Below are positions 17,659 through 25,392 of a stretch of DNA of 32,013 nucleotides, piece by piece. Made by a program: the position numbers and the translations under genes. The notes under the pieces were generated by a model. That model saw nothing but the letters and a program-made list of their open reading frames with translations, searched no databases and had not been told where the DNA came from. Position 1 is the stretch's first letter; the number at the start of each line of letters is the position of its first letter. This stretch comes from Hyphomonadaceae bacterium (GTDB lineage Bacteria > Pseudomonadota > Alphaproteobacteria > Caulobacterales > Aquidulcibacteraceae), in the NCBI GenBank assembly GCA_021731005.1, contig JAKFYF010000300.1, forward strand, positions 1-32,013, read 5' to 3'.

Positions 17659-18798
17659 TCACGCCGCTTTGGTGGAGAGCGCTGTATAGCGCCTGAGATG
17701 ATGATCGACATTGCCGAAGGTGGAATCCAGCATGGTCGTGCGCTTGAAATAATGGCCGACGCGCATTTCGTCGGTGACGCCCATGCCGCCGTGAATTTGC
17801 ACCGCCGCCTGGCCGACAAAGCGCGCCGCGCGGCCAATCGCGACCTTCGCGGCGGCGACCGCCTTCGCCCGCTCCGCTTCGCTCGCATCCAATTTGAGCG
17901 TCGCCAGCAGCGCCATCGAGACGCCTTCCTCGGTGGCCATGAACATGTCGACCAAGCGGTGTTGCAACACCTGGAAATCGGCGATGGCGCGGCCGAATTG
18001 CTTGCGGGTCCTGGCGTATTCCTGGGTCAGCGAGGTCATCATGCGCATGCAGCCGACCGCTTCGTGGGCGTGGGCGGCGTTGGCTTCGTCGACCAGGCGC
18101 TCGAGCAGCGGCAACGCGGCGTCCGCGGGGCCGATGAGGTGCTCGGCGCCGAGCGCGACGTTCTCGAAATACACTTCCGACGCGCGCGAGCCGTCCATGG
18201 TGGGATAGTCGCGCGTCGATATCCCTTTGGCGATCTTCGGCGCCAGGAACAGTGAAACGCCCTTGGCTTCGCGCTGCGAACCGGCGGTGCGCGCAGTCAC
18301 CAGCAGGTGGTCGCCCTGCGGCGCGCCGATCACCACCGCCTTGTGGCCGTTGAGCACATAGCCTGCGCCGTCCTTCTTCGCGGTGGTCGAAACATCCAGC
18401 AACGACCAGCGGCTTTTCGGCTCGGCTTGCGCGAAGGCGACCACGCGCTCCCCGACGGCGATCGCGTTCAGATGCTCCTGCTTCTGCGCCGCGCTGCCCG
18501 AATAGTTCAACGCGCCGGCGGCGATCACCACGGTCGGCACGAACGGCTCAACCACCAACGCCTTGCCGAATTCCTCGGCGATGACGCTGACATCGAGCGC
18601 GCCCCCGCCGAGGCCGCCGAATTCCTCCGGCAGCGCCGCCGCCAGCAACCCCAATTCAGCGAACGCGGACCAGTTCTTCTTCCACGCGCCCTCATCGGCC
18701 AGCGCGGCCCGGCGCTTGTCGAAATCGTACTGCCCCGCCGCCCATTTCGCGATCGAGTCGCGAAGCATGTTCTGTTCGTCGGTGTAATCGAAATTCAT
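17659..18798 (-). CDS. Acyl-CoA dehydrogenase family protein
   Basis: MNFDYTDEQNMLRDSIAKW...ALPEEFGGLG...RKQFGRAIADFQVLQHRLVDM...QIHGGMGVTDEMRVGHYFKR. Confidence 0.92.
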   Translation of the reverse strand: MNFDYTDEQNMLRDSIAKWAAGQYDFDKRRAALADEGAWKKNWSAFAELGLLAAALPEEFGGLGGGALDVSVIAEEFGKALVVEPFVPTVVIAAGALNYSGSAAQKQEHLNAIAVGERVVAFAQAEPKSRWSLLDVSTTAKKDGAGYVLNGHKAVVIGAPQGDHLLVTARTAGSQREAKGVSLFLAPKIAKGISTRDYPTMDGSRASEVYFENVALGAEHLIGPADAALPLLERLVDEANAAHAHEAVGCMRMMTSLTQEYARTRKQFGRAIADFQVLQHRLVDMFMATEEGVSMALLATLKLDASEAERAKAVAAAKVAIGRAARFVGQAAVQIHGGMGVTDEMRVGHYFKRTTMLDSTFGNVDHHLRRYTALSTKAA

Positions 18799-18843: not shown

Positions 18844-20499
18844 TCAAGACTTGCGCTTGCCGCCGCCAAAGATTCCGAAGAGTCCTCCGCCCTTCGGCTT
18901 GGGTGGCGGCGTCCACGGGCCCGCCGCGGGCGCGGGACCGCTTTGCGCCGCGCCTGACTTGCTTGCCGCGCCGTCAACCGCGGGAACCGAGGTGCGCGCG
19001 GGCCGGCGCGGGGCTGCGCCATCGACGGCGGCCTTGAGCCGGCGCGCCACCGCCGCGGCGTCCCCGTTCCAGGCCATACAATCCTTGCCCTGAACAAGCG
19101 GCAGCCGCGAAAGATCGGGCTTGCCCACCAGCAGCGGCACCACTTTCTTCTGCCCCGTCACTTCCAACGAAAGCGCCGTGTTCACTTCCGTCACCGGCCA
19201 TTCCTTGGTCACGGAGACCTGGCTGACGATCGCGAGCACGGTGCGCGCCGAGCCGAGCGCGGTGTTGATCTTCTGGGTAAAGCTCTGGCCCCAGCCGATA
19301 TGGGCTTCGTCCAAGAATGCCTTCATGCCGAGCTTGGCGCAGGCTTCGAAGATCGGACGCGCGATGGCGTCCTTGTCTTCGCTGGCGTGGCTGATGAAGA
19401 TATCGAAATCGTCGCCGCCGAACGCCATCTGGCGCACGAAGCGCGATGGGTTGGGATCGATCTTGATCAGCTTCGCTGCGAGATTGAGGAACACGGGATC
19501 GTCTGCCCCGCGCACCATCTTGATGAAGGCCAATTGTCCGTAGACGACGTTGCGGAACGCGCGCGGTGGGTCCTTGGGCGGACGCAGCATGCCGCGGTGT
19601 TTGAGAAAATGGTCGTGGGCGGCGGCCGGAAGCCCGAACTTCTGCCAAGCGTGCAGCATGGCGCGCACGCGCCGTATCCGCTCGCGCGACACGTTCGGCC
19701 GGGAATTGACTTGCAGCCCGGTCACGCTTTGGCGCTGATGCCGCGTCTGCAGCCGGATTTTCTTGTGGTTGATTGCGAATCCGCTGGCGGTGATCGCGCG
19801 CTGGAGCATTTCGGCGATCGCCGCGCTGTGGCCGTCCGCGCCCTGCGCATGAACGATCAGAGTCTGCGGCAAGTTATGCTGGTTGGAGGAAAACGTGATG
19901 TCGTCGGCGTACCGCGTATAACGCACATTGCTCTCGCGCGCGAGGCGGGCCAGGCGGCGATCCAGATCGGCGGCGATGAAGTTCGAAAGCGTTGGCGAGG
20001 TCGGCGCGCCTTGCGGCAGGCCGTTCTTGTAGGTGCACAATTGCGCGAAAACGGAGGCGGCGGCGGGCCCAAGCTTGAATGGCTCGGCCATGAACAGCCC
20101 GCGCACGCGGCCGAAATTGATGCTCGGGAAGAAGTCCTCCAGGTCGATGTTCAGCACCAAGCGCTGGCCGACATGGGCGCGCGCATTGGAAACAATGCTG
20201 CGCTCCTTGATGAACCCTTGTGCGGCCGGGTGGGCGCTGTAGCGGACCTGCAGCACCGGCGCGAGCTTGGTCTGCAACTCGCGGATCAGGCCCGTGGGCG
20301 CGGCGATCGCGCGCATGCCGCCAGTGCGCTTGGGGATCTCAAACCGCGTGTAGCGTTGCTCGTCAGGCGCGCGATAGAGCGCATAGGTCAGCTTGCTGAC
20401 CGACACGCCGAAATATTTCGCCGCATCGTAGGCGGTGAGAATCGGTTTGCCCTCGTGGAGCAGAATTGGTTCAGCGGCCGCTTCGGAATGAGAGTGCAT
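18844..20499 (-). CDS. Retron-type reverse transcriptase fused to a C-terminal TIR domain
   Basis: RT: FEIPKRTGGMRAIAAP, NIDLEDFFPSINFGRV, GLPQGAPTSPTLSN, YTRYADDITFSS; retron-specific NAxxH (N105-H109) and VTG (aa 259-261). TIR: DFDIFISHASEDKD...VLAIVSQVSVTKEWPVTEVNTAL with candidate catalytic Glu438. Confidence 0.92.
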   Translation of the reverse strand: MHSHSEAAAEPILLHEGKPILTAYDAAKYFGVSVSKLTYALYRAPDEQRYTRFEIPKRTGGMRAIAAPTGLIRELQTKLAPVLQVRYSAHPAAQGFIKERSIVSNARAHVGQRLVLNIDLEDFFPSINFGRVRGLFMAEPFKLGPAAASVFAQLCTYKNGLPQGAPTSPTLSNFIAADLDRRLARLARESNVRYTRYADDITFSSNQHNLPQTLIVHAQGADGHSAAIAEMLQRAITASGFAINHKKIRLQTRHQRQSVTGLQVNSRPNVSRERIRRVRAMLHAWQKFGLPAAAHDHFLKHRGMLRPPKDPPRAFRNVVYGQLAFIKMVRGADDPVFLNLAAKLIKIDPNPSRFVRQMAFGGDDFDIFISHASEDKDAIARPIFEACAKLGMKAFLDEAHIGWGQSFTQKINTALGSARTVLAIVSQVSVTKEWPVTEVNTALSLEVTGQKKVVPLLVGKPDLSRLPLVQGKDCMAWNGDAAAVARRLKAAVDGAAPRRPARTSVPAVDGAASKSGAAQSGPAPAAGPWTPPPKPKGGGLFGIFGGGKRKS

Positions 20500-20604
20500 C
20501 CCGTCCCTCGTACCTTACCAAACCCGCGCTTAAGCGCTGGGTTTAAAGACGCACCTTATTTGTTCCGCCACAGGATCAACAGCGGACTTAGAAGGACGGG
20601 ATGC
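20496..20604 (-). ncRNA. Candidate msr-msd-like structured RNA (or 5'-UTR regulatory RNA) of the RT-TIR gene
   Basis: 11-bp perfect inverted repeat GCATCCCGTCC (20496-20506) / GGACGGGATGC (20594-20604) enclosing two hairpins (UCCGC...GCGGA and AAACCC-A-GCGCUUAAGCGC-GGGUUU). Confidence 0.55.
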
Positions 20605-20614
20605 TTGGCGCCGA

Positions 20615-20643
20615 CATAAACAAGGGCGCGCCGCGACTGTCAA
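20615..20643 (-). promoter_or_regulatory. Putative sigma-70 type promoter of the retron-like element
   Basis: On the minus strand TTGACA (20643-20638), 17-nt spacer, TTTATG (20620-20615); predicted start at about 20607, just 5' of the inverted-repeat arm. The -10 match is weak. Confidence 0.45.
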
Positions 20644-22659: not shown

Positions 22660-25392
22660 ATGTCCCAAGATTCCGAGCAACGGCTGCGCAACGATGCTGT
22701 CGCGCCTGAGGCGTGGAGCGAAACCATGGCCGAGGCGGCGCTCGAAAGCGGCCTCGGGCCTGACATTCCCGCCGCGTTGGCGCGGGCGGCGGCGTGCATA
22801 GCCGGCTGGGCGGCGCGGGAATCGCTGGCGTCAGCGCTGAACGAGGCCATGCGCGCGGGGCGGGTGGCGCTCGATCCAGCGCCGATGCACGGGGCGCTGA
22901 CAGGCAAGCGGCAGGCCTCAGGGGCGACCATGCTTTGGCCGCGAGAGCCCGCAAGCGAAATGCGCGCCGTTTCCCGCGCGCAGGAATTGCTCAGCCGCGG
23001 CGCAAAGATCGGCATCGCCGGTTCGCCATCCACCGCCGCGCTCGACGCGCTCAACGCCGCGGCGCGCTTGGCCGACCCAGTCGGCGCTGACGGCCGCGCA
23101 ATCCTGGTGCGTCCCGATCCGCACTCCGCTCCCGCGTTGCTGGCCGACGAAGCCGCGCGCGAGCGCGCCGGCGCCGCGCTGATGGCGGGCGCACGCGCCC
23201 TCGACGGTGCGCTCGCCGATCTCGCCATCGAGGCTGTGCGCAGCGGGCTCGACGAAGAGCGCGGCGGCGTGAAGCGGAAGATGGCCGCGGCGCGCCTCGC
23301 GGGCGCACCCGACGCGGACATTCTCGCCGCACTGGCGGGGGCTGTAAGCCGCGGCGCCTATGCCGCCGCGATCGATTCCGGCGCCGACACCGTGCGCCGC
23401 CGCGTGGCGATCGCGGCGCCCGAAGCAAGCGCCCATGCGTTCACCGCGTTCGCACCGGGCGCGCTCGATCCAACCGGGGCGTTCGCGGCGCAGGGAGAAG
23501 CGGCGTTTGCCGGCGCGAGCATCGCGCTGAATGCCTATGCTGGCGACGCCAGCTTCGATGCCGCCGCGTTCGTCGATGATATTCGCACCGTGGTGAGCGC
23601 GCTGGACGCCTGCCATGAACCGAACGCCGAAAGCCGCGCGATCGCGATCCGGCTTGAAGGCTTGGCGGCGTTGCTGATGCGCCTGGGTCTTGGCTATGAC
23701 AGCATTGAGGGCCGCAACCTCGCCGCCTCTGTGGCAGCACTCGCACACGCCGCGGCGATTTCAGAGAGCAGCGCGCTCGCGCGCGAAAGCGGCGCCGAGC
23801 GCGTCGAGCAAACGGCGCAGGCCGCCATCAAGTCCGCGCCCGTCGCGGCGGCCAAGCTCGAAGGCGGACTCGCCGCGCTTGCGGTTGAACTCTACAAGAG
23901 CTTGCCCGCGAAAGCCGCCCTGCGCGCGCCGGTCGCCATCGTATTCGCCGCCGACCGCGCGAGCGCCCGCCGGCTTGGTCGTCACGCGCCGGGCCTGGCC
24001 CCGAGCGCGGGCGCGTCGATCTACGGCGTGCGCGAGGACGGAGGTTTCGGCCGCATCCTGTGCGATGACGCACGAGCGGGATTGCGTGTTCTTGGTTACG
24101 ACAACGATGCGATCGCCGCATTCCGATTGCACGCGGAAGGCCGCCGCACCTTGAAGGGCGCGCCGGGCGTCAATCACCAGACACTGGCGCAGCGCGGATT
24201 GACCGAGACCGCGCTCGACGCTGTCGAAGAGGCGGCCCTCGACGCATTCACGCTGCGCGACGCGGCCCATCCCTTGGTGATCGGCCCGGAATTCTGCGAA
24301 AGCGTGCTCAAGCTTCCCGCCGATGTCGCCGCCGGCAAGCGCGGCGATTTCCTGCTGACGCTTGGGTTCACCGAAGCCGAGATTGCCGCCGCCGAGCGCT
24401 TTTGCATGGGCGCCGGCGATCTCAACGGCGTGCTCTGCGAGGCGCACCAAGGCGTGTTTCACGGCGAGCGCGAAATTACCGCGGAGGCGCGCATCGCCAT
24501 GGCCGGCGCGCTCGCCCCGTTCGCGCGCACCGCGCTCGATCTCACACTGACCGACCTCGACCGCCGCGCTGCGATCCTCGAAGCGGCGCGCACGGCGGGG
24601 GTTGCGCTGCTCAATCTGCGCGCCGAGGCGCCCGCGCTGGCATTACCGGCGTTTGAGGAAGCAGAGGAGGAAACCCGCGCGCCCGCTCCGACCGCGGCGG
24701 CGGCAAGCACAGCGATGGCGGCGCCCGCGCCAATCGAGCGCCGGCGCTTGCCGGAACGCCGTAAGGGTTACATCCAGAAGGCCACTGTCGGCGGCCACAA
24801 GGTCTATCTGCACACCGGCGAATACGACGACGGCGCGCTCGGCGAAATCTTCATCGACCTGCACAAGGAGGGCGCGGCGTTCCGCTCGCTGATGAACAAT
24901 TTCGCCATCTCAATTTCGATCGGGCTGCAATACGGCGTGCCGCTCGAGGAATATTGCGACGCTTTCCTGTTCACCCGCTTCGAGCCGGCCGGCGAAGTCA
25001 AGGGCAACGACACCATCCGCCACGCCACCTCGATCCTCGATTACATTTTCCGCGAACTGGCGGTCTCCTATCTGGGCCGCGGCGACCTCGCCCAGGTCGA
25101 CCCGTTCGACGCGCGCGGCGACGGCCTCTCGAAGCGGGCGCAAGACGCCGAAGGCGCGGCGCGGCTGATTTCGCGCGGCTTCGCGCGCGGGGCGACGCCC
25201 GACAATCTGGTGATGCTGCGCCCCGCGCCTAGCATCACCAATCTGCGCGACCGGCGCGAACCGGTGAGTGCGCGCGCCAACGGCCCGCGCTATCGCACCG
25301 AACCATGCAGCGCCTGCGGCCACTTCACAGTGGACGCGGAGAATTTCTCTTGCGCGGCCTGCGGCGCCAGAGGCGAAGCCAGCGGGCGGTGA
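22660..25392 (+). CDS. TSCPD-domain protein; apparent degenerate (non-catalytic) paralogue of class II ribonucleotide reductase NrdJ
   Basis: C-terminus [108 protein letters not shown] is the NrdJ C-terminal signature; terminal CSACG...CAACG zinc-ribbon-like motif; no NPCSEY-type finger-loop cysteine. SD aaggag before ATG 22660. Confidence 0.82.

Follow-up and report, generated by a model that had tools for sequence, protein, structure and literature searches.

A 551-residue reverse transcriptase-TIR (RT-TIR) fusion and the short structured RNA directly ahead of its gene very probably form a complete type XII retron, whose product would most likely be an NADase that acts by abortive infection and is kept in check by msDNA, pairing of the a1 and a2 arms of the RNA limiting its translation. 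Both lie in the window, the whole 32,013-nucleotide stretch of Hyphomonadaceae DNA analysed here; all coordinates refer to its reverse (-) strand unless stated otherwise. The class is known, and by its sequence the locus belongs to it: a type XII retron is a single-polypeptide RT-TIR. What is new is a clade-wide variant with a compact ncRNA (an earlier type XII model may exist), a start codon inside a2, an added C-terminal tail and a fixed chromosomal site. We favor the type XII reading because family and motifs, the RT tree, a fold match to retron Eco2, ncRNA covariation and the full co-occurrence of RNA and RT-TIR all point to it, as do conserved promoter spacing and strong purifying selection on both RT and TIR.

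An intact RT-TIR fusion with retron motifs

The open reading frame is intact and exactly bounded at 18844..20499, with an ATG start. The first-pass annotation, made from the letters alone, had proposed a retron-like reverse transcriptase joined to a TIR effector; motifs, profile searches, the RT tree and a predicted fold bear this out. The retron reverse transcriptase domain (aa 20-345; 19465..20442) features N105-A-x-x-H109, NIDLEDFF as motif A, QGAPTSP, YADD at 197-200 and V259-T-G261, all where they had been placed. The TIR domain (aa 364-493; 19021..19410) begins, as proposed, at about residue 364 and contains the candidate catalytic E438 (codon 19186-19188), with W434 four residues before it in a WxxxE motif (KEWPVTEVNTAL). 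Across 17 aligned RT-TIR proteins, with identity down to 37%, residues N105, A106, H109, D199, D200, T260, G261 and E438 are invariant.

Profile searches matched both domains. In PADLOC the retron models matched best, with PDLC02962 (RT-TIR_XII; 2e-162) aligning aa 19-492 to positions 13-476 of its 478; Pfam RVT_1 covers residues 55-263 (2e-23) and Pfam TIR_2 residues 367-469 (1.7e-17). The NCBIfam equivalog NF042941 (Retron_TIR_antiphage) scored 586.8 bits, 13 below its 600-bit cut-off, which four same-genus orthologues pass with 600-632 bits. An AF2 model built on a 16-row alignment (pLDDT 76.5) comprises an RT fold, then a TIR fold, then a disordered tail, and among PDB entries Foldseek matches it best to the RT-Toprim fusion retron Eco2 (E 1e-27). 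The modeled TIR domain thus combines the two features looked for in a TIR NADase, a predicted catalytic Glu within WxxxE and the TIR fold itself.

The tail (aa 494-551; 18847..19020) is a Pro/Ala-rich linker that leads into a short aromatic and basic patch, GLFGIFGGGKRKS. Clade proteins with a complete end extend 50-60 residues beyond the TIR, with ends of the same type such as FFELLFGRRKR, LEWIFGRR and GFFGLFRKK; our guess is that the tail tethers the protein to the membrane or to a partner. In one RT-TIR of the same clade (L089:1204-3158, genome G023), the C-terminus resembles a transmembrane helix (RWFVTALWAALAAALAAAAFLFGFG) in place of the basic patch.

Measured against the nearest relatives, dN/dS is ~0.06 for the RT and 0.01-0.03 for the TIR. 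Since these values are low, and below the 0.12-0.13 of the neighboring acyl-CoA dehydrogenase, the ORF is not a chance one. The RT tree places the focal RT among retron RTs and not outside them, in a 17-member RT-TIR clade (SH-aLRT 97%); the E. coli RT-TIR and L015 share an open fork with this clade, L014 stands apart, and the TIR label requires two changes on the tree.

A compact msr-msd-like RNA upstream of the gene

By describing the locus as a one-gene version, the first-pass annotation overlooked a second component. Folding, covariation and a covariance model (R1) delimit an msr-msd-like ncRNA of 109 nt at 20496..20604, the shortest class in the set examined, with the start codon of the ORF inside it. 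In reading direction the order is a TTGACA box, a1, TAAG, a hairpin, a spacer, a second hairpin and a2, directly upstream of the ORF. The a1 arm (GCATCCCGTCCTTC; 20591..20604) pairs with a2 (GAGGGACGGGATGC; 20496..20509) at 14 of 14 positions, one of them G-U. Following a1, a TA[AC]G motif invariant in 18 of 18 sequences contains G20587, the candidate branching guanosine, a role suggested by analogy with Eco1, since it follows a1. The msr hairpin (20564..20586) has a conserved sequence with its loop around TTGATCC; in alignment A1, two of its pairs show compensated C-G to U-A changes. The msd hairpin (20518..20546; core AAACCCAGCGCTTAAGCGCGGGTTT) is hypervariable, with about 11 distinct sequences among 18 relatives, every one of them paired; across the 18-sequence alignment a1, a2 and the first hairpin hardly vary. 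A constant first hairpin and a variable but always paired second are as expected of msr and msd.

The predicted fold (-54.8 kcal/mol, z -6.2) was matched by none of 200 shuffles. Compensated changes in the 14-bp a1/a2 stem are seen in L011, L012 and L089, and 34 cells of the 18-sequence alignment are compensated on both sides, whereas shuffles give 8.8 (0/500 reach the observed covariation) and slid controls 1-8. With R1, 18 of the 249 genomes of the order gave a single copy each, and all 18 carry RT-TIR; conversely, every RT-TIR of the clade has the ncRNA, a low-completeness genome (G038) being counted through L005. By its sequence, then, the locus has the upstream msr-msd RNA bounded by a1 and a2 that is expected of a retron, with a putative branching G. 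In Rfam nothing matched the region above a gathering score, and a distant search of plasmids with the ncRNA DNA found no match. The ncRNA and its covariance model are new here insofar as they have no Rfam counterpart; a type XII model may already exist, perhaps among the ncRNA models of PADLOC (PMC9252829).

The retron appears to have its own promoter, comprising a -35-like TTGACA (20638..20643) and a weak -10 TTTATG (20615-20620). All 18 relatives checked have TTGAC at 37-42 nt ahead of a1, though the flanking genes vary.

The start codon lies within a2

The a2 arm contains a Shine-Dalgarno-like GAGGG/AGGGA and ends in GGGATGC, the ATG of which (20497-20499) is the start of the RT-TIR ORF. 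In the window an in-frame TAA directly precedes this ATG, and no other ATG, GTG or TTG lies ahead of the conserved RT sequence. A start that is merely apparent, the true one being a non-canonical downstream codon and the ATG coincidental, is improbable. The ATGC does belong to a structural element conserved in its own right, and in L089 the a2 ATG is out of frame, so that protein must start ~80 nt after a2; but the frame is kept in the other 18 of 19 clade members, and in eight members, including the window, a stop lies just upstream and the stretch from a2 to the conserved RT sequence is free of ATG, GTG and TTG. Elsewhere, among about 75 retron-RT loci scanned for a1/a2, some of which yielded no such arms or a chance repeat, the start lies mostly 1-35 nt after a2, and a few loci have a candidate start in a2 plus a later one.

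For every clade member tested, the AUG has a predicted accessibility of at most ~0.001 (<0.001 in the window), and removal of a1 in silico raises it in all of them, to 0.04-1.0. We rejected a paired AUG as sole argument for a special hidden start, for the Eco1 AUG is also predicted to be paired; the feature that distinguishes this clade from Eco1 is the position of the AUG in a2 itself. With both the Shine-Dalgarno sequence and the AUG placed in a2, pairing of this arm with a1 should reduce toxin translation. A tentative extension, which we consider possible rather than probable, is a dose control in cis: a transcript would either fold through a1:a2, forming the msr-msd template with the start buried, or be translated, and binding of RT-TIR to the RNA would close the loop, keeping toxin and msDNA guard in step with no antitoxin gene.

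Relationship to known retrons

Type XII retrons (PADLOC RT-TIR_XII, NCBIfam NF042941 and the E. coli copies) combine RT and TIR in a single polypeptide with the same motifs as the focal gene. The earlier view of the one-gene layout as a departure does not hold: RT-TIR_XII is single-gene by definition, and 83 of 5,426 E. coli genomes have the same layout. The E. coli relative, annotated 'TIR domain-containing anti-phage reverse transcriptase', is ~41% identical to the focal protein and possesses its own upstream a1/a2-flanked RNA (CGGCTCTGCC...GGGCAGAGCCG), as in the focal clade, whose ncRNAs of 108-116 nt are unrelated to it in sequence. Its start follows a2 rather than lying inside it, it lacks both the C-terminal tail of the focal clade and the helix of L089, and the copy examined adjoins prophage-type genes, whereas the focal clade resides mostly at one chromosomal site. 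Three of the listed E. coli RT-TIR copies (H62-H64) are interrupted by ISSen4, and a copy on plasmid NZ_CP019281.1 is split in two frames.

Eco2/Ec67 (type I-C, RT-Toprim) resembles the focal system in joining RT and effector in one chain and in having a single msr and a single msd hairpin, and differs in its Toprim RNase and its msd region of 67 bases; the excerpted account makes no mention of a start codon in a2, unlike the focal clade (PMC12405507). Eco1/Ec86 shares a Shine-Dalgarno-like AAGGG within a2 just ahead of the RT start, but its ATG lies 6 nt after a2 and its effector is a separate gene. Myxobacterial retrons, too, are kept in chromosomes within a related group and are inherited vertically there (Rice and Lampson 1995, cited in PMC8867640); the focal retron, in contrast, is patchy, with 18 retron-less copies of its site.

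Proposed mechanism

From the observed anatomy, conservation, RNA structure and co-occurrence we infer a defence in which msDNA, a phage trigger and NADase activity would be linked as follows. A short transcript from the retron's own promoter would fold into the compact msr-msd RNA, and the RT domain, with the msd hairpin as its template, would make msDNA linked to the RNA. By analogy with the RT-Toprim fusion retron Eco2, this RNA-DNA complex would keep the covalently fused TIR inactive. A phage that disturbs the msDNA would then activate the TIR, NAD+ would be consumed and the infected cell stopped, as TIR chemistry and published RT-TIR defence suggest; a1:a2 pairing may also limit toxin translation from the same transcript. 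An msDNA-guarded NADase, which the first-pass annotation had predicted, is the standard reading and the most likely one. According to the summary in PMC7699616, Gao et al. 2020 described Retron-TIR defence and reported that retrons need msDNA synthesis to defend; phage protection has been published for other Retron-TIR copies (same source). In the model proposed for Eco2, msdDNA blocks the fused effector until it is removed by a phage nuclease, with DenB as the trigger (PMC12405507).

Two observations count against an msDNA-guarded TIR, namely the NF042941 score just below its cut-off and the lack of other defence genes among the neighboring proteins scanned. Residence at one chromosomal site, moreover, is less typical of mobile defence genes.

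TIRs of Thoeris systems make a cyclic ADP-ribose isomer as a signal, and a weak Thoeris-type model (NF058526, 6e-5) also matches the focal TIR, which raises the alternative of an RT-TIR defence whose TIR signals to another effector instead of depleting NAD+ itself. We regard this as unlikely, given that the neighboring proteins scanned include no partner effector and that the nearest known relatives are single-gene systems.

Occurrence, chromosomal site and history

RT-TIR was found in 19 of the 60 genomes of the GTDB family, in six genera, and in 10 of the 30 genomes of the genus; two further family matches (G021 and G022) were left out for want of a match to the TIR profile. At E 1e-100, a class sample of 385 genomes contained it only in the window's own genome, and a phylum sample of 399 genomes gave one other match, L148, with no TIR match. 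A related retron RT in G022 (L098), which has another a1/a2 pair and a TAA within its reading frame, appears broken in that genome.

The first-pass description of housekeeping surroundings free of mobile elements was right for the gene neighbors checked, and the site is mostly between two acyl-CoA dehydrogenase genes. The gene directly downstream in the window (the 'DN' flank; 17659..18798) is an acyl-CoA dehydrogenase by Pfam, and 11 other carriers have the same neighbor. The retron adjoins one or both of the pair in 15 of 19 genomes and lies between the two in 11 carriers; three, whose contigs end there, show just the upstream gene, and the window has the downstream one only, its upstream partner being on contig C23. 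The pair is thus split in the window's genome (G000, contigs C8 and C23), through rearrangement or an assembly effect. In four carriers (L009, L013, L089 and L097) the retron is elsewhere. Among 18 retron-less congeners the two dehydrogenase genes are neighbors, 2-39 nt apart in 11 of the 18. In some retron-less genomes (L105, L114, L104, L109) small membrane-protein-like ORFs occupy the space between the two, which may therefore serve more generally as an insertion site. An extra small gene (MADD.RP...) lies between the upstream dehydrogenase and the retron in L007, L010 and L011. Separately, the window encodes at 22660-25392 (+) an unusual 910-aa RNR-like protein with a TSCPD match, a weak ribonucleotide-reductase barrel match and a C-terminal CxxC pair. 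A mobile system was considered and rejected: the pieces examined contain no mobile-element gene, and phages gave no full-length relative. Plasmid relatives covered to at least 80% amount to one record, an E. coli split gene.

The RT-TIR tree and that of the downstream neighbor agree in their deep split and in the pairs L010+L011 and L081+L082; mapped on the neighbor's tree, the retron label is gained or lost at least five times. Between nearest species, RT (90-92%) and TIR (94-99%) are more similar than the neighbor gene (82-83%). Copies may therefore have been exchanged at the site, and we do not claim strict vertical inheritance. Overall, the history looks largely one of residence, with losses and perhaps some exchange at this locus. 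A non-retron or domesticated use, in which the RT and its upstream RNA would serve or regulate the acyl-CoA dehydrogenase operon instead of phage defence, could explain a fixed site in several genera, broadly congruent trees and a constraint on the TIR stronger than on the neighbor, but is very improbable in view of the patchy presence, the retron's own putative promoter, the four carriers with the retron at other places and the catalytic residues kept in both domains.

Implications

These data provide an ncRNA and a covariance model for an alphaproteobacterial branch of RT-TIR retrons. At 109 nt the template is very compact, with a possible use in making short DNA in cells. The start codon, locked in a stem of the toxin's own guard RNA, suggests how a fused retron toxin might spare its host. 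Finally, the filled and empty sites form a natural series for measuring the retention or loss of a defence gene.
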